This document shows positions 2,379-51,920 of a DNA stretch of 51,924 nt, one piece after another (positions within the stretch are counted from its first letter, which is position 1; each line of letters opens with the position of its first letter). Made by a program: the position numbers and the translations under genes. Source of the DNA: Bacillus sp. J37 (GTDB taxonomy: Bacteria > Bacillota > Bacilli > Bacillales > Bacillaceae); NCBI RefSeq assembly GCF_000518865.1, contig NZ_JAEK01000035.1, positions 1 to 51,924 of the forward strand, in the 5' to 3' direction. Below the pieces are notes generated by a model, which did no database searches, had not been told where the DNA came from, and saw only the letters and a program-made list of their open reading frames with translations.

Positions 2379-3470
2379 TTACATTGCTTTTTGTGAATGT
2401 TTTTTCCAAGAAAATTTTTGAATTGTACGATAGGCTCTACCGTTAAAGTAAAAGAAGAAACTTGTCATGCCCCCAACTTTTATTAACCTTTTTGCCATTT
2501 TATTAAGCTCTTTGTGAGTGGCCACTTTATCGTCTGATAAATAAACACCTAATAAACCCCGATTAATTAATTTATGAAAATTTTCATGAGGAATACCGCT
2601 TAACTGATGATCTGCTTGTTCTACAAAATACTCTAACCTCTCCATCATGGTTGCTTCTGAATCATAGTAACTGCAAAAATTTAAGTCACCACCCAGCTCA
2701 TCTTCCTCTTGATCAATTAAGTAATCGAGTAAAATATGAAGACCTTGAATATATGGAAAATAACTATCTCTTATTTGTTGTGCTTGTTTTTCCTCAAAAT
2801 TTTCGTGGAAAGCATACGCAACTAAGCAAAAGATGCCAAGTGTTGATCCGGTACATGCTGAAAACTCATACCATTTCATCTCGGGAAGACTGTTTTTATG
2901 ATTCTCAAACCAATTTTCAAGTCTTGGAACACGCTCATCTTTTTTCACATGCTTATGTACCTGCAGATCGCAATAATAGCGTGAAAGCTCCAGTAAATAC
3001 TTTGATATCATCGGATAGTGCTCTAACTCAGAAAGAACGTTTTGACATGTTTGAACTAAACGGTTCAAATATCCACCATCATCTTGATCTACTCTATATT
3101 TATAGTACTCCTTGCAAGGTGCACCACATGTTAATGCATCAAGCATAGATTGGTGTAACATACGAAAATCAACTGGATCTAACGATGTACTTCGATCACA
3201 TAAATTATCTAAGTAATCGCTTATTGTTTGATATGCTACAATAAACTCGATACATTGTTGTTTATGGGGACCTGATATCATAGCTAATATGCCCCCACCC
3301 TCACAGTGGAATTCTTTGTCCTGGATACTGTTTAAAGCTTGAATTCTCAATTCCTGATTCGGTATTCTTTCAGCTTGATCTCTCCACTGTCCAATATAAA
3401 AGTGAACAATCGGAAAGATCTCTCTATATACTTTGGTCATTAATTTTATCGGGTGCTGCGGTACTGTCAA
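2379..3470 (-). CDS. ytpB: Tetraprenyl-beta-curcumene synthase (YtpB, DUF2600)
   Basis: A 363-aa protein matching the YtpB/TpcS family, which cyclises all-E heptaprenyl diphosphate (C35) to tetraprenyl-beta-curcumene, a precursor of the sesquarterpenes (sporulenes) of Bacillus spores. Acidic motifs typical of the family are visible, including DYLDNLCDRS near residue 90 and QEEDELGGD near 250. I choose a TTG start (MTVPQHPIKLM) because AGAGGTG precedes it at good spacing and the N-terminus then aligns with B. subtilis YtpB; the longest frame starts 4 codons earlier at GTG. It lies 70 nt downstream of ytpA, likely one transcript. Confidence 0.88.
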   Translation of the reverse strand: MTVPQHPIKLMTKVYREIFPIVHFYIGQWRDQAERIPNQELRIQALNSIQDKEFHCEGGGILAMISGPHKQQCIEFIVAYQTISDYLDNLCDRSTSLDPVDFRMLHQSMLDALTCGAPCKEYYKYRVDQDDGGYLNRLVQTCQNVLSELEHYPMISKYLLELSRYYCDLQVHKHVKKDERVPRLENWFENHKNSLPEMKWYEFSACTGSTLGIFCLVAYAFHENFEEKQAQQIRDSYFPYIQGLHILLDYLIDQEEDELGGDLNFCSYYDSEATMMERLEYFVEQADHQLSGIPHENFHKLINRGLLGVYLSDDKVATHKELNKMAKRLIKVGGMTSFFFYFNGRAYRTIQKFSWKKHSQKAM

Positions 3471-3539
3471 AGGGAGTGTCACCTCTTATTTCTTTTTTTC
3501 AATCAGCTCTTGTCACATGAAGTCGACAACGTTTAAACA

Positions 3540-4340
3540 CTAAGTCACGGACTCAGAATGGCTATCAAAAAAACGTTTAGCTGTTTCAAAAACCAGCTCT
3601 CTTTCAGGCTCACTAAAGATTTCATGATAGAGCCCTTTCCATTCCTTATAATTTTTCTCCAGTAAATCCACTTTGTTAAACCACTTTTTCACTAGTGATT
3701 TATCAACAATTTTGTCTTCTCCTCCTTGCATAAGAAGCAGGGGAACTTGTTGAAATTTTCCAACCTGATTTTGAGCTTCTTCCATAGCTTTTATCAACTC
3801 ACGATACCATCTTACGGAAACCTTTGTCACATATAAAGAATCGTTTTCATCTAGCTCCTGTACTGATTTATTACGAGTGGCAATCTCTACGCTTAATTTT
3901 GAATCAACTTTAAACGAAGGTGCGATCAAATTTAATCCTTTGGAAGCCAGTTCTAAAGCTTTGCTTGGTTTAAACAAAATTCCCAAACAGGGAGACGATA
4001 AAATAACTGCTTTTATTTCATGATGCTTTTCTTGTAGAGCCCTAATAACTACCAGCCCACCCATGCTGTGTCCTAATAAAAATAAAGGCACTCCGAACTT
4101 TTTCGCTTCAGTTAGCCAAATATTCACTTCTTTTATATATTCATCAAAAGATTTGATATGTCCTCTTCTTCTTGTCGAAGTTCCTTGACCAGGTAAATCT
4201 CCCATTACCACATGGTAACCTGACAATCGCCACATTTCTACCAACCATTTGTAGCGACCATGATGTTCTGCTGCTCCATGAATAATCACGATAACTCCTT
4301 TTACAGGTTCAATCTCAGCTTTCCATTTCCACAATTCCAC
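3540..4340 (-). CDS. ytpA: Lysophospholipase / alpha-beta hydrolase YtpA
   Basis: A 266-aa alpha/beta hydrolase of the monoacylglycerol-lipase-like family. The nucleophile elbow GHSMG is at residues 90-94 (Ser92), the predicted acid is Asp209 in GGEDK and the base is His239 in LYHE; the oxyanion-side HGAAEH is at 21-26. B. subtilis YtpA is a phospholipase implicated in making the lysophospholipid antibiotic bacilysocin. It has no signal peptide, so it is cytosolic or peripheral. The gene starts with GTG and is followed by ytpB, the same order as in B. subtilis. Confidence 0.88.
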   Translation of the reverse strand: MELWKWKAEIEPVKGVIVIIHGAAEHHGRYKWLVEMWRLSGYHVVMGDLPGQGTSTRRRGHIKSFDEYIKEVNIWLTEAKKFGVPLFLLGHSMGGLVVIRALQEKHHEIKAVILSSPCLGILFKPSKALELASKGLNLIAPSFKVDSKLSVEIATRNKSVQELDENDSLYVTKVSVRWYRELIKAMEEAQNQVGKFQQVPLLLMQGGEDKIVDKSLVKKWFNKVDLLEKNYKEWKGLYHEIFSEPERELVFETAKRFFDSHSESVT

Positions 4341-4413
4341 TACCTACTTTCACTTTCTTCTTTGTCTACTGATATAATAAATAAAGAATTCCCAACTGAA
4401 AGGAATGAAAAAC

Positions 4414-4926
4414 ATGATCTATCCTTATAAAGAAAAAAGTCCAAAGATCTCTGCTTCAGCTTTTATTGCAGACTACGTTACAATTACAGGCGATGTTGAG
4501 ATTGGAGATGATTCCAGCATTTGGTTTCAAACAGTTATTCGTGGTGATGTTTCCCCTACCGTTATAGGAAAACGTGTAAATGTTCAAGATTTATGCTGTC
4601 TTCATCAAAGTCCAAACAAACCACTTATCCTTGAGGATGATGTTACCGTTGGACATAGTGTTATCCTACATAGTTCAATTATTCGCCAAAAAGCATTAAT
4701 TGGAATGGGATCCATCATTTTGGATGGTGCAGAAGTAGGTGAAGGAGCTTTTATCGGAGCAGGCAGCCTTGTCCCTCCCGGAAAAAAAATCCCTCCTAAC
4801 ACACTTGCTCTAGGTCGACCTGCGAAGGTTGTCAGAACATTAACATCAGAAGATCTGTTAGACATGGAAAGAATTCGTCGTGAATATGTTGAAAAAGGTC
4901 AATATTACAAAGCAATTCAATCTTAG
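4414..4926 (+). CDS. ytoA: Gamma-carbonic-anhydrase-like left-handed beta-helix protein YtoA
   Basis: A 170-aa protein built of hexapeptide repeats (left-handed beta-helix, roughly residues 10-140). The three histidines expected for the gamma-carbonic anhydrase metal site are present at H64 (LHQSP), H81 and H86 (GHSVILH), so a bound metal is plausible; physiological activity of YtoA-type proteins is not settled. I use the second ATG (MIYPYKE), which has AAAGGA at proper spacing and matches B. subtilis YtoA; the upstream ATG sits on top of the ribosome site. Monocistronic, with a hairpin directly after it. Confidence 0.88.
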   Translation: MIYPYKEKSPKISASAFIADYVTITGDVEIGDDSSIWFQTVIRGDVSPTVIGKRVNVQDLCCLHQSPNKPLILEDDVTVGHSVILHSSIIRQKALIGMGSIILDGAEVGEGAFIGAGSLVPPGKKIPPNTLALGRPAKVVRTLTSEDLLDMERIRREYVEKGQYYKAIQS

Positions 4927-4931
4927 AAAAA

Positions 4932-4970
4932 CACGATTTACCGCCAAGAATGGCGGGAATCGATGTCTTT
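4932..4970 (+). terminator. Terminator-like hairpin after ytoA (AAGAAT-loop family)
   Basis: The inner stem CCGCC/GGCGG closes an AAGAAT loop, and an outer CGATT/AATCG stem extends it, followed by a T-rich tract. The loop and architecture recur at 31447-31490 with different stem bases (see findings). Confidence 0.6.
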
Positions 4971-5279
4971 TCTTATCCTTTAAACCTTTAGTATAGTTAA
5001 ACTTTTTTAAAGTATAAGTAATAAAAACCTCTTCTGAGTAAGGGATTGGTGTTTTTTCTTCAATTCCTTACTATGTTTCCATTATTAATGATCCCCATAT
5101 ATTTAATACCACTCATCCACCTTTTAAACTAAGCATATTTCATTTAAATATTTTCGCTTTTCATCAACAAACATTAATTTTGTGAATATTATGTGAAGGA
5201 ATTTTTTACATTTTCTTATTATTAACTAAATAATTCTCTACTAAAATAATAGAAAAGGGGTAAATAAAGGAGCGTCCAA
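4971..5279. other. Intergenic region with a 12-bp stem-loop
   Basis: No gene is visible. An inverted repeat at 5037-5048 and 5061-5072 (12 pairs including one G-T, 12-nt T-rich loop) could form a hairpin, but no T-run follows it, so it is not a clear terminator. The remainder is AT-rich leader sequence before the PAP2 gene; I could not define a convincing promoter. Confidence 0.5.
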
Positions 5280-5831
5280 ATGAAGACAAAGCTGATGACC
5301 AACATGTACAATTTCGAATGCAGGCTTTTTCGAAGTGTTAATCGTCATTTCGATCAAAAAATGCTGAACATCTATTTTCGAAACATCACACACCTAGGTG
5401 GAGCCATCTCAACGATTGCAGTTTGTTTATTTCTCGTTTTTTTCACAAAAGACCTTTTACAAATCATTGGTATAACATGTGCAATCTCTCTTCTATTCAG
5501 CCATTTACCGGTTGCACTGGTGAAAAAGTTATATCCAAGAAAACGGCCCTATCTTGCTTTGCTTGAGACTAAGGTACCTGCAAATCCTTTAGAAGATCAT
5601 TCCTTTCCATCCGGACATACAACAGCCATTTTTTCTGTAATTATTCCTTTCATTTTATTTATGCCTCAGCTGACAGTCATTCTATTGCCAATGGCCATTA
5701 GTGTCGGCCTTTCAAGAATGTATCTGGGCTTGCACTATCCTTCTGACGTGTTAGTAGGCTGCATATTGGGAAGTTCTGTTGGATTTCTAAGCTACACAAT
5801 CATAACCAGGTTCTTTATATTGCCTTTGTAG
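5280..5831 (+). CDS. PAP2-family membrane phosphatase
   Basis: A 183-aa integral membrane protein with the complete PAP2 signature: K-x6-RP at residues 82-90, PSGH at 110-113 and SR-x5-H-x3-D at 145-156 (R146, H152, D156). Several hydrophobic helices surround these motifs. The family hydrolyses lipid phosphates such as undecaprenyl pyrophosphate, phosphatidylglycerophosphate or phosphatidate; the substrate cannot be read from sequence. AAGGAG precedes the ATG. A GT4 glycosyltransferase starts 63 nt downstream in the same direction, suggesting a joint role in a lipid-linked sugar or glycolipid pathway (inference). Confidence 0.85.
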   Translation: MKTKLMTNMYNFECRLFRSVNRHFDQKMLNIYFRNITHLGGAISTIAVCLFLVFFTKDLLQIIGITCAISLLFSHLPVALVKKLYPRKRPYLALLETKVPANPLEDHSFPSGHTTAIFSVIIPFILFMPQLTVILLPMAISVGLSRMYLGLHYPSDVLVGCILGSSVGFLSYTIITRFFILPL

Positions 5832-7734: not shown

Positions 7735-8931
7735 TTACTTAAGCGCAGCATTACTAAGTGCTTCAGCTTTATCTGTTCTTTCCCATGGAAGATCTAAGTC
7801 ATTTCGACCAAAATGTCCATAAGCAGCCGTTTGCTTGTAGATAGGACGTCTCAAGTCAAGCATTTTAATGATTCCCGCAGGGCGTAGATCAAAGTTACTG
7901 CGAACAACTTCCACCAATACTTCTTCCGAAACTTTTCCTGTTCCAAATGTATCAATAGATATAGATACAGGTTGTGCTACACCAATTGCATACGCTAATT
8001 GAACTTCACACTTTTCAGCTAATCCTGCAGCAACAATATTCTTTGCAACATAGCGAGCAGCATATGCAGCAGAACGGTCAACTTTTGTTGCATCCTTACC
8101 TGAGAATGCTCCACCACCATGACGCGCATATCCGCCATAAGTATCAACAATGATTTTACGACCAGTTAGACCTGCATCACCTTGTGGTCCACCAATTACG
8201 AAACGACCAGTAGGATTAATAAAGTATTTAGTGTTTTCATCAATTAATTCTTTAGGAACAACTGGATTGATTACATATTCTTTAAGATTACGTTGAATTT
8301 GTTCCAACGTAACTTCAGGATGATGTTGAGTAGAAATAACAATTGTATCAATACGAACCGGTTTATTATTTTCATCATATTCAACCGTTACTTGTGTTTT
8401 ACCATCTGGACGAAGATATGGAAGAATCTCTTCTTTACGTACCTCTGTTAAACGGCGGGATAATTTATGAGCTAAAGAAATTGGCAGTGGCATTAATTCC
8501 TTCGTTTCGTTACAAGCAAATCCAAACATTAACCCTTGGTCACCGGCACCGATTGCTTCAATTTCTTCATCAGACATTTGTCCTTCACGTGCTTCCAGTG
8601 CTTGGTCAACACCCATTGCAATATCTGCTGATTGCTCGTCAATAGAAGTTAAAACAGCACATGTTTCTGCATCGAAGCCATACTTTGCACGAGTATATCC
8701 GATATCTTTAATTGTTTCACGAACAATTTTAGGAATATCAACATACGTACTTGTTGTAATTTCTCCAGCAACCAGTACTAAACCTGTTGTAACAGAAGTT
8801 TCACACGCTACACGTGCGTTAGGGTCCTTTGAGATAATTGCATCAAGAATTGAATCTGAAATTTGGTCACAAATCTTATCTGGATGGCCTTCTGTTACAG
8901 ACTCAGAAGTAAATAGACGTTTTTTAGACAT
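7735..8931 (-). CDS. metK: S-adenosylmethionine synthetase
   Basis: A 398-aa MetK, making SAM from methionine and ATP in the cytosol. The family motifs are clear: GHPDK at 15-19, GAGDQG near 120 and the glycine-rich GGGAFSGKD loop near 262. Near-identical to B. subtilis MetK throughout. The start MSKKRLFTS is chosen over an in-frame ATG seven codons earlier, because that ATG lies inside the GGAGG-containing ribosome site. It is monocistronic, preceded by a SAM-I riboswitch and a strong sigma-A promoter, so high SAM should terminate its transcription. Confidence 0.97.
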
Positions 8932-9102
8932 AGTTAAAAGCTTCCTCCTCATATATGTTCATTCAGTTGATCCGGAACTCTTCCCAAAGTTTGACCTTTA
9001 GAAAATCACGTTGGCATATTTGTGAACAGAAGTATTATGTACCTTTACCACAATGCTTGTCCTGGTAAAACTCTAATGAAGAAAATACTTATTTCTGTTA
9101 TC

Positions 9103-9133
9103 AAAAAAACCTTTCCCCTATGAGGAAAGGTTT
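9103..9133 (-). terminator. Riboswitch-controlled terminator in the metK leader
   Basis: On the minus strand a perfect 10-bp stem (AAACCTTTCC / GGAAAGGTTT) is followed by TTTT, 21 nt past the 3' strand of aptamer P1. Its 5' arm is also complementary to 9148-9157, which overlaps the P1 3' strand. That gives the expected mutually exclusive antiterminator (GAG-C-GAAAGG with CCTTTC-CTC). Confidence 0.9.
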
Positions 9134-9154
9134 GTTATCGTTCATCGCCTTTCG

Positions 9155-9491
9155 CTCTTATCGATCAAGGGCTTTCGCCTTGCTTCAGGTTAGCACCTTT
9201 GCGTCGGAAAATGTCGCCGGGAGTGCATCTTTAAAACATAGTTCCACAGATTGGGACTTTTTTGCCTACGCAAGCTTACACTTGCTTAGAATGATGCTAT
9301 GCATCATTCTTGACCTAATAAAAACACAACATGAAGCAAAACGAGTTTCGTTTCATAACGTGCTTTTATTAGGTCAGGCAAAAAACTGCTAATACTGGTA
9401 ACTATATAATTAGTGCGCATTCGCCGCTTTCCTTTGATAGCAGGTTGCTGGGTTTCATAGGGCCTGTCCCTCCACCAGCTCGGGATAAGAG
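9155..9491 (-). promoter_or_regulatory. SAM-I (S-box) riboswitch with a ~245-nt insertion in P3
   Basis: On the minus strand the 5' half (9491-9443) has P1 CTCTTATC, the GGTGGAGGGACAGGCCC core and TGAAACCCAGCAACC. The 3' half (9197-9155) has GGTGCTAACC, a GAAA-capped P4 and the P1 complement GATAAGAG. P1 pairs perfectly over 8 bp. A normal S-box aptamer is about 100-120 nt with a short loop between CAACC and GGTGC; here that loop is 245 nt (9198-9442). The terminator and antiterminator directly follow, so the regulatory platform looks intact. Expected role: SAM binding stabilises P1 and causes termination upstream of metK. Confidence 0.92.
9258..9385 (-). repeat. Multi-hairpin element inside the riboswitch P3 arm
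   Basis: The outer inverted repeat TTTTTTGCCT / AGGCAAAAAA (9258-9267 and 9376-9385) encloses three hairpins: a 5-bp stem at 9270-9285, a perfect 10-bp stem at 9288-9310 (GCATCATTCT arms) and a roughly 30-bp imperfect stem at 9311-9376. On the minus (transcribed) strand most mismatches of the long stem become G-U pairs, suggesting it is maintained as RNA. Confidence 0.7.
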
Positions 9492-9508
9492 AATCCGTTC
9501 AAGGTCAT

Positions 9509-9537
9509 ATCATAGCGCACTAAGTTAATGGTGTCAA
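9509..9537 (-). promoter_or_regulatory. metK: metK sigma-A promoter
   Basis: On the minus strand TTGACA (9537-9532), a 17-nt spacer and TATGAT (9514-9509) form a near-consensus vegetative promoter. It places the transcript start around 9500, just upstream of the S-box P1 strand. Confidence 0.88.
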
Positions 9538-9751
9538 CAGAAATCGACAGTTATTCGATATGAATCTTCTTAAGCTTTAAGTAAATCTTAAGAATAGTAT
9601 TCCCCTCATATAATGAAATATGAAATTAGTTACAAAATATAGTATGTACAATTTTTTTAAAAAGCTCTCACAATTAGTATGTTCTAATAATATAAATGTG
9701 TTATACTATTAGTTAACAGGAAATAATTTTTTCAGAAAGAAGGGTATGGGG

Positions 9752-51564: not shown

Positions 51565-51636
51565 TGACCCGTACGGGATTCGAACCCGTGTTACCGCCGT
51601 GAAAGGGCGGTGTCTTAACCGCTTGACCAACGGGCC
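51565..51636 (-). tRNA. tRNA-Glu (anticodon UUC)
   Basis: 72 nt on the minus strand. The acceptor GGCCCGT pairs with ACGGGTC, the anticodon stem CCGCC/GGCGG encloses the loop CTTTCAC (anticodon TTC), and the T-arm has GGTTCGAATCC. CCA is not encoded. Its wobble U is a substrate of the MnmL/MnmM pathway encoded at the other end of the window. Confidence 0.96.
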
Positions 51637-51660
51637 CTAAGACTAAGAAAATGAAAAAAC

Positions 51661-51751
51661 TGGCGGAGAAGGAGGGATTTGAACCCTCGCGCCGCTTACA
51701 CGACCTACACCCTTAGCAGGGGCGCCTCTTCAGCCACTTGAGTACTTCCCC
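51661..51751 (-). tRNA. tRNA-Ser (anticodon GCU)
   Basis: 91 nt on the minus strand, with the long variable arm typical of tRNA-Ser. The anticodon loop CTGCTAA gives anticodon GCT. The acceptor is GGGGAAG paired with CTTCTCC, and CCA is encoded. Confidence 0.96.
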
Positions 51752-51758
51752 AAATATA

Positions 51759-51833
51759 TGGCTCCGCAGGCAGGACTCGAACCTGCGACCGATCGGTTAA
51801 CAGCCGATAGCTCTACCACTGAGCTACTGCGGA
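51759..51833 (-). tRNA. tRNA-Asn (anticodon GUU)
   Basis: 75 nt on the minus strand. The anticodon loop TGTTAAC gives anticodon GTT, the acceptor TCCGCAG pairs with CTGCGGA, the T-arm has GGTTCGAGTCC and CCA is encoded. Confidence 0.96.
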
Positions 51834-51843
51834 ATAGTATAAA

Positions 51844-51920
<77 letters not shown>

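Follow-up and report, generated by a model that had tools for sequence, protein, structure and literature searches.

S-box (SAM-I) riboswitches act in their standard form as transcriptional off switches, in which SAM closes helix P1, the antiterminator is lost and the terminator acts, and their aptamer contains a pseudoknot of four pairs. The metK leader described here shares with this family, RF00162 in Rfam, the P1–P4 core, the motifs GCAACC and GGTGCTAA, the pseudoknot complementarity, the terminator/antiterminator arrangement and metK as the target gene, and it departs from the family in P3, which measures roughly 20 nt in the consensus and 245 nt in our case. Long stem-loops at tolerated sites of riboswitches, with the core left intact, have been described as "variable insertions" and are termed nonconserved in the part of that survey available to us (Barrick and Breaker, 2007, PMC2258182). 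The metK arm is likewise a stem-loop insertion at a tolerated site with the core kept, but the inserted structure recurs in conserved form from species to species, and three different S-boxes contain a similar module. The spermidine riboswitch is a close variant of SAM-I with one member located upstream of metK in Oceanobacillus damuensis (PMC10853860), and, as far as the available portion of that report goes, it resembles our leader in its SAM-I fold and in a J1/2 that is off the SAM-I consensus. However, the spermidine variant also alters the P3 internal loop, whereas the metK leader keeps the SAM-I sequences GCAACC and AAGGTGC, which argues for SAM rather than spermidine as the ligand. The J1/2 of the metK S-box (9483–9479, minus strand) reads CCGAG instead of the Rfam consensus aAGAG, and the ligand assignment is therefore not certain; CCGAG also occurs in 76 named metK leaders, but the pattern by which these were retrieved required it. 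A more distant parallel are the 5S rRNA expansion segments of bacteria and archaea, which, in the accessible part of their description, are also extra segments on a structured RNA of unchanged layout, albeit on an rRNA and not on a riboswitch (PMC7812874). Among the literature matches listed, which comprised titles and abstract openings and lay mostly outside the subscription journals, no conserved inserted domain common to several S-boxes was found.

The window analysed here comprises 51,924 nucleotides of the genome of Bacillus sp. J37, and the features of its metK leader, all on the minus strand, are collected in Table 1. A sequence-only reading of the window had described two S-box halves in the correct order, a perfect P1 across the gap between them, 245 nt separating CAACC and GGTGC, complementary stretches near the base of the inserted RNA and an antiterminator/terminator pair behind the aptamer, and all of this was confirmed. 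P1 is a perfect 8-bp stem of CTCTTATC (9491–9484) and GATAAGAG (9162–9155), exactly 245 nt (9442–9198) separate the end of CAACC at 9443 from the first base of GGTGC at 9197, and the complementary stretches are GGAAA (9432–9428) with TTTCC (9210–9206) and TATAGTT (9406–9400) with AACTAT (9243–9238). In the predicted folds, the antiterminator takes in the last bases of the P1 3′ strand and competes with the terminator. Across the arm, CAGG in L2 (9466–9463) is complementary to CCTG in J3/4 (9189–9186), positions that we take to be those of the pseudoknot between the P2 loop and J3/4. The S-boxes of metI and yitJ carry CTGG/CCAG at these positions, and two further S-boxes of the same genome carry CTGG/CCTG with one mismatch, so the middle pair tolerates variation. 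Among the 20 metK loci compared, the 5′ half is almost invariant. In the program's list of open reading frames, metK begins at an earlier ATG at 8952. Two side observations concern the surroundings of the arm. A nine-base complementarity exists between TTAGTGCGC on the promoter side (9523–9515) and GCGCACTAA in the arm (9418–9410); the corresponding pairing in the minimum-energy fold was set aside, as TTAGTGCGC is part of the promoter and probably absent from the transcript. Opposite the leader, the plus strand contains a 90-aa open frame (9120–9392), probably by chance.

Table 1. Features of the metK leader and gene (window coordinates).
Feature	Position	Strand	Basis
Putative sigma-A type promoter (TTGACA 9537–9532, 17-nt spacer, TATGAT 9514–9509)	9509..9537	minus	Consensus match only
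Whole SAM-I (S-box) aptamer including P3 arm	9155..9491	minus	Permissive Rfam search and motif reading
Aptamer 5′ half: P1 5′ strand, J1/2, P2, GCAACC	9443..9491	minus	RF00162 alignment
P3 arm, 245 nt	9198..9442	minus	Gap between the aptamer halves
Four-way-junction module at the distal end of the arm	9258..9386	minus	Predicted fold and match of covariance model R1
Aptamer 3′ half: GGTGCTAA, J3/4, P4, P1 3′ strand	9155..9197	minus	Sequence reading
Predicted antiterminator: GAG 9157–9155 and GAAAGG 9153–9148, able to pair with 9130–9122	9122..9157	minus	Fold of 9165–9117
Predicted intrinsic terminator: stem 9133–9122/9118–9107, T-run 9109–9103	9103..9133	minus	Predicted fold
Probable metK start: ATG 8931–8929, preceded by AGGAGG 8949–8944		minus	Start chosen by the ribosome site
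metK (methionine adenosyltransferase), the controlled gene	7735..8931	minus	Open reading frame; TIGR01034 metK, 631 bits, cut-off 309

At the curated cut-offs, an Rfam scan of the whole window returned only four tRNAs and missed the metK aptamer. (Four tRNA genes are clustered at the contig end, at 51565–51920 on the minus strand.) A permissive search of 8950–9700 did match RF00162, at 35 bits and an E value of 4.7e-6 against a cut-off of 44.4 bits, with the 5′ half aligned correctly and the 3′ part misplaced into the arm; it contained no second or uninterrupted S-box, and the matches of the permissive Rfam search inside the arm were below-threshold hairpins only. Ten RF00162 matches were found in the whole genome (5.34 Mb, 96 contigs), nine of them above the cut-off and metK the lowest. 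When 13 metK leaders were scored with RF00162, the eight with arms of 48–180 nt, whose aptamer halves are near-identical to those of the window, reached 57–69 bits with end-to-end alignments, and the five with arms of 221–247 nt reached 34–41 bits. As relatives with arms of up to 180 nt pass, the low score is best read as a consequence of arm length. Nothing points to a broken aptamer: the halves, P1, the pseudoknot complementarity and the expression platform are intact, and the features of the four-stem core (GCAACC, GGTGCTAA and the closing P1) are present. An assembly artefact was rejected, as the arm recurs at 95% identity in two further genomes (G003 and G006), and long arms also occur in genomes assembled into two to four contigs (G002, G003, G005, G007). 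Annotation at the Rfam cut-offs overlooks riboswitches such as this one.

The sequence-only reading had considered that the insert may be a long extended P3 arm, and the predicted structures bear this out. The region 9150–9530 folds better than 100 of 100 dinucleotide shuffles (z −6.7), and the arm is predicted to continue P3 through basal pairs, an internal loop, the GGAAA/TTTCC stem and further short stems into a closing stem that carries three hairpins. In this distal module, the closing stem (9385–9376/9267–9258) is T-rich on one side and A-rich on the other, and hairpins 1, 2 and 3 comprise 9375–9312, 9310–9288 and 9285–9270, respectively. At the base, TGCTATCAAAGGAAA and TTTCCGAYGCAAA are retained in most metK arms, among them the two shortest, but not in that of G010. 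In an alignment of eight of the 21 metK arms, chosen as long and holding most or all of the module, 95.1% of the pair cells contain standard pairs, and double changes occur in 9 of 72 pairs. Similarly selected metI arms (12 of 20) and yitJ arms (8 of 21), taken together, give 98.3% paired cells, double changes in 16 of 48 pairs and a covariation score of 0.268, compared with 0.096 in shuffles. The paired fractions and double changes were reached by none of 500 shuffles in either set, the counts of pair types by 3 and 4 of 500 for the two sets, and slid controls were at most 51% paired. Variants of the G-U type occur in 31 pair columns and of the A-C type in 9 (p 0.0007, in a test that is biased by the use of RNA rules in the structure prediction), which points to the transcribed strand as the one that folds. 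The two long stems of metI and yitJ carry a double change at 15 of their 31 pairs, helices 3–5 at 1 of 17 (p 0.003 by a Fisher test that takes no account of shared ancestry).

The long P3 arm is not unique to metK, since two further S-boxes of the same genome, which the sequence-only reading had missed, carry a similar module. Their arms measure 265 and 281 nt and resemble each other. The gene behind the 265-nt arm matches the NCBIfam model "methionine biosynthesis PLP-dependent protein" at 627 bits (cut-off 585), and the gene behind the 281-nt arm matches "bifunctional homocysteine S-methyltransferase/methylenetetrahydrofolate reductase" at 521 bits (cut-off 453); we take them to be metI and yitJ, respectively. 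Of the other seven S-boxes of this genome, five have measured arms of 18–51 nt and two, read by eye, have arms below 25 nt; the long arm is thus confined to three of ten S-boxes, and the genes of these three belong to one pathway. Twenty metI and yitJ arms of the genus align with each other at a mean column identity of 70%, and from their modules (12 metI and 8 yitJ, with no metK sequence) the covariance model R1 was built. R1 recognises the metK module of the window with 57.2 bits (E 3.2e-14), the next matches in the window being at most 15.7 bits, and among 11 metK sources it detects the module in 7 (69.8, 67.7, 65.5, 57.2, 56.1, 52.7 and 41.7 bits; E 1.1e-9 or better). It is marginal in an eighth (17 bits, E 0.015) and gave no match in the remaining 3 of the 11, among them the 224-nt arm of G013.

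When the 21 genomes that we assign to the genus Metabacillus were searched with R1, 19 had a match, and all matches listed lie within the arms of metK, metI or yitJ S-boxes, on either strand because hairpins match both; as 150 of about 3400–5800 first-look candidates per genome were scored, the negatives of this search are weak, and it missed the metK module of G003, which scores 56 bits directly. In 396 other genomes of the order, searched with stricter filters that also missed the metK module of the window's genome, a single match of 29 bits was obtained, which we rejected as a copy of the module, as it is a terminator-like hairpin without the surrounding S-box motifs; the negative outcome of this wider search is likewise weak. 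A 17-nt hairpin pattern, AGCAAGCGNNAGCTTGC, picked after the arms had been seen, has 11 matches in the 21 genomes, all 11 in arms (metK 5, metI 3, yitJ 3), and its reversed control has none. On the level of primary sequence, metK modules resemble those of metI and yitJ only weakly except in hairpin 3, which is identical at 19 of 19 positions between the metK arm of G002 and the metI arm of G014; a sequence profile of the metI/yitJ modules gave borderline metK matches that were no better than one elsewhere in the window, and the apex sequence of these modules is not retained in metK. It is thus the covariance model, together with the architecture and hairpin 3, that carries the claim of a shared module. 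From these, the three modules probably share ancestry, and convergence on a similar fold is the lesser reading.

The comparison with relatives changes the picture of an aptamer "split by an insertion": the 245-nt gap is real, but the accident that this wording implies is not, since a metK S-box with a P3 extension of varying length is present in all 21 Metabacillus genomes compared (the window's genome, G000, and 20 others). In the 20 others, the longer metK arms measure 244, 242, 221, 243, 246, 247, 224, 187, 180 and 143 nt, and the remaining ones 109, 95, 92, 89, 88, 86, 84, 70, 52 and 48 nt. The metI arms range from 21 to 287 nt (20 measured), the 21-nt arm in G010 being counted as metI by its aptamer, with no metI gene seen behind it on the stretch fetched; a second record of the G020 yitJ leader (L121, identical to L141) was left out of the metI counts, and no metI leader was found in G018. 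The yitJ arms range from 36 to 366 nt (21 measured). Arms of at least 200 nt are found in 8 of 21 metK, 16 of 20 metI and 12 of 21 yitJ leaders. A wider set of 76 named metK leaders, united by a common 51-base pattern, comes from several genera, including some Metabacillus; 73 of them were measurable, and three with a variant motif (L038, L070, L098) gave no length. Outside Metabacillus, the measured arms are mostly 23–65 nt long, and the longest belong to Bacillus infantis (88 nt), B. massilionigeriensis (100 nt) and Peribacillus tepidiphilus (161 nt).

In a tree based on metK and pckA, each of the three loci shows its own variation in arm length, independent of the other two, and two pairs of sister species differ strongly at metK: 224 nt in G013 versus 52 nt in G009, and 247 nt in G017 versus 48 nt in G011. 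The short arms of G009 and G011 retain the basal stem and the aptamer. As R1 recognises the module in the G017 arm, not in that of G013, only the G017/G011 pair shows loss of a recognised module, and we infer for both pairs that the metK arm was lost rather than gained. Long and short arms in sister species that both keep the aptamer argue against an essential role of the arm. The 21 genomes provide a series of arms at three loci, from 21 to 366 nt in length, through which the question of neutral versus functional expansion can be addressed.

We consider it likely that the metK leader is a functional SAM-off switch of transcription and that its arm is a P3 expansion domain that is tolerated, forms its own fold and is common to three S-boxes. 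Judging from what is known of the family and from the order of the parts, bound SAM would hold P1 closed, the metK antiterminator would be blocked and the terminator would end transcription. The 245-nt arm would fold on its own, join the aptamer halves as a short P3 does and point away from the SAM pocket. Its pairing may have been kept since an unpaired insert of this length would part the halves, and not for sensing; such a need for pairing would explain both the covariation on the transcribed strand and arms that come and go. The distal module could have spread by copying or recombination among S-box leaders, or could derive from an old palindromic repeat, and it may since have been trimmed or lost in some species. 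The arm presumably has no sensing role, and its simplest role would be none beyond folding. The graded metK arm lengths, from 48 to 247 nt in 21 of 21 genomes, speak for such an expansion. The metK case illustrates the extent to which an aptamer can naturally expand with its core sequence intact.

Less well explained by a spacer are the slow change of the metI/yitJ apex and of the short hairpins, which a mere spacer would not need, and the restriction of the long arm to three genes, and these points keep a functional accessory domain as a rival. In that case, a protein, a nuclease or a small RNA would read the apex and the short hairpins and jointly set stability or output of the metK, metI and yitJ leaders. 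We regard this as unlikely, although it would fit an architecture that three S-boxes of one pathway share and that occurs nowhere else among the matches listed for the 21 genomes, and also small hairpins that show fewer double changes than the long stems do. The long stems could also be substrates of RNase III, and a study of Staphylococcus aureus, in the part available to us, tabulates a SAM riboswitch leader among structured RNAs that were recovered together with RNase III (PMC3386247). Against this rival stand the many species that have a short arm in at least one of the three leaders, the difference in the metK arm between sister species and the absence of the metI/yitJ apex sequence from metK. 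Its more specific form, a dedicated Metabacillus S-box accessory RNA domain in the metK, metI and yitJ leaders that is read by a common trans-acting partner, appears quite unlikely to us; if it were true, the core genes of SAM and methionine biosynthesis would gain a second shared layer of control in addition to SAM sensing. The sequence-only reading had also suggested that the arm could add another input, slow folding or change the SAM response time, none of which is supported by the evidence here. As a timing device, the about 245 extra nucleotides would delay completion of the aptamer and give metK, metI and yitJ a response time that differs from that of S-boxes with short arms. That the long arms of the window's genome belong to three biosynthesis genes, the other S-boxes having arms of 18–51 nt or below 25 nt, would agree with this, but the arm is located upstream of both terminator and P1 3′ strand, and the decision window after aptamer completion would therefore not be lengthened; moreover, metK arm length varies fivefold among close species, which makes a timing function very improbable.

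A recent insertion of a mobile, MITE-like element that damaged the riboswitch is largely refuted, and we give it hardly any credence. The metK insert is rich in hairpins, its Rfam score is low, and a repeat did enter an arm elsewhere, as the yitJ arm of G006 shows, but the metK arm is common to many species, its pairing covaries, and the aptamer halves, P1 and the expression platform are in order. Within the genome that carries it, the arm matches, besides itself and its palindrome, just three stretches of 19–27 nt, all weakly, and with no second genomic copy past these short matches, a recent mobile-element origin of the metK arm was rejected. At yitJ, in contrast, growth of an arm by repeat insertion is seen. 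The 366-nt arm of G006 contains an extra piece of about 83 nt in hairpin 1 (L142:373–455) that is absent from the sisters G000 and G005, and this piece is a copy of a dispersed Metabacillus repeat with a 96-nt consensus, two predicted hairpins and the usual start TTAG. With at most 40 candidates scored per genome, the repeat has at least 43, 42, 41 and 29 matches in four genomes. The G006 arm has thus grown recently, and P3 arms are able to grow in this way. A similar module in three paralogous riboswitches, differences between sister species and the gain of a repeat together make the growth of riboswitch domains directly testable. An Rfam search of five repeat loci at an E value of 0.1 or better gave nothing beyond the S-box and one weak sRNA match. 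By eye, several of 20 fetched repeat copies are followed by a terminator-like inverted repeat, and the window itself holds a diverged copy of the roughly 96-nt repeat at 4924–5016 on the plus strand (profile match, E 1e-5).
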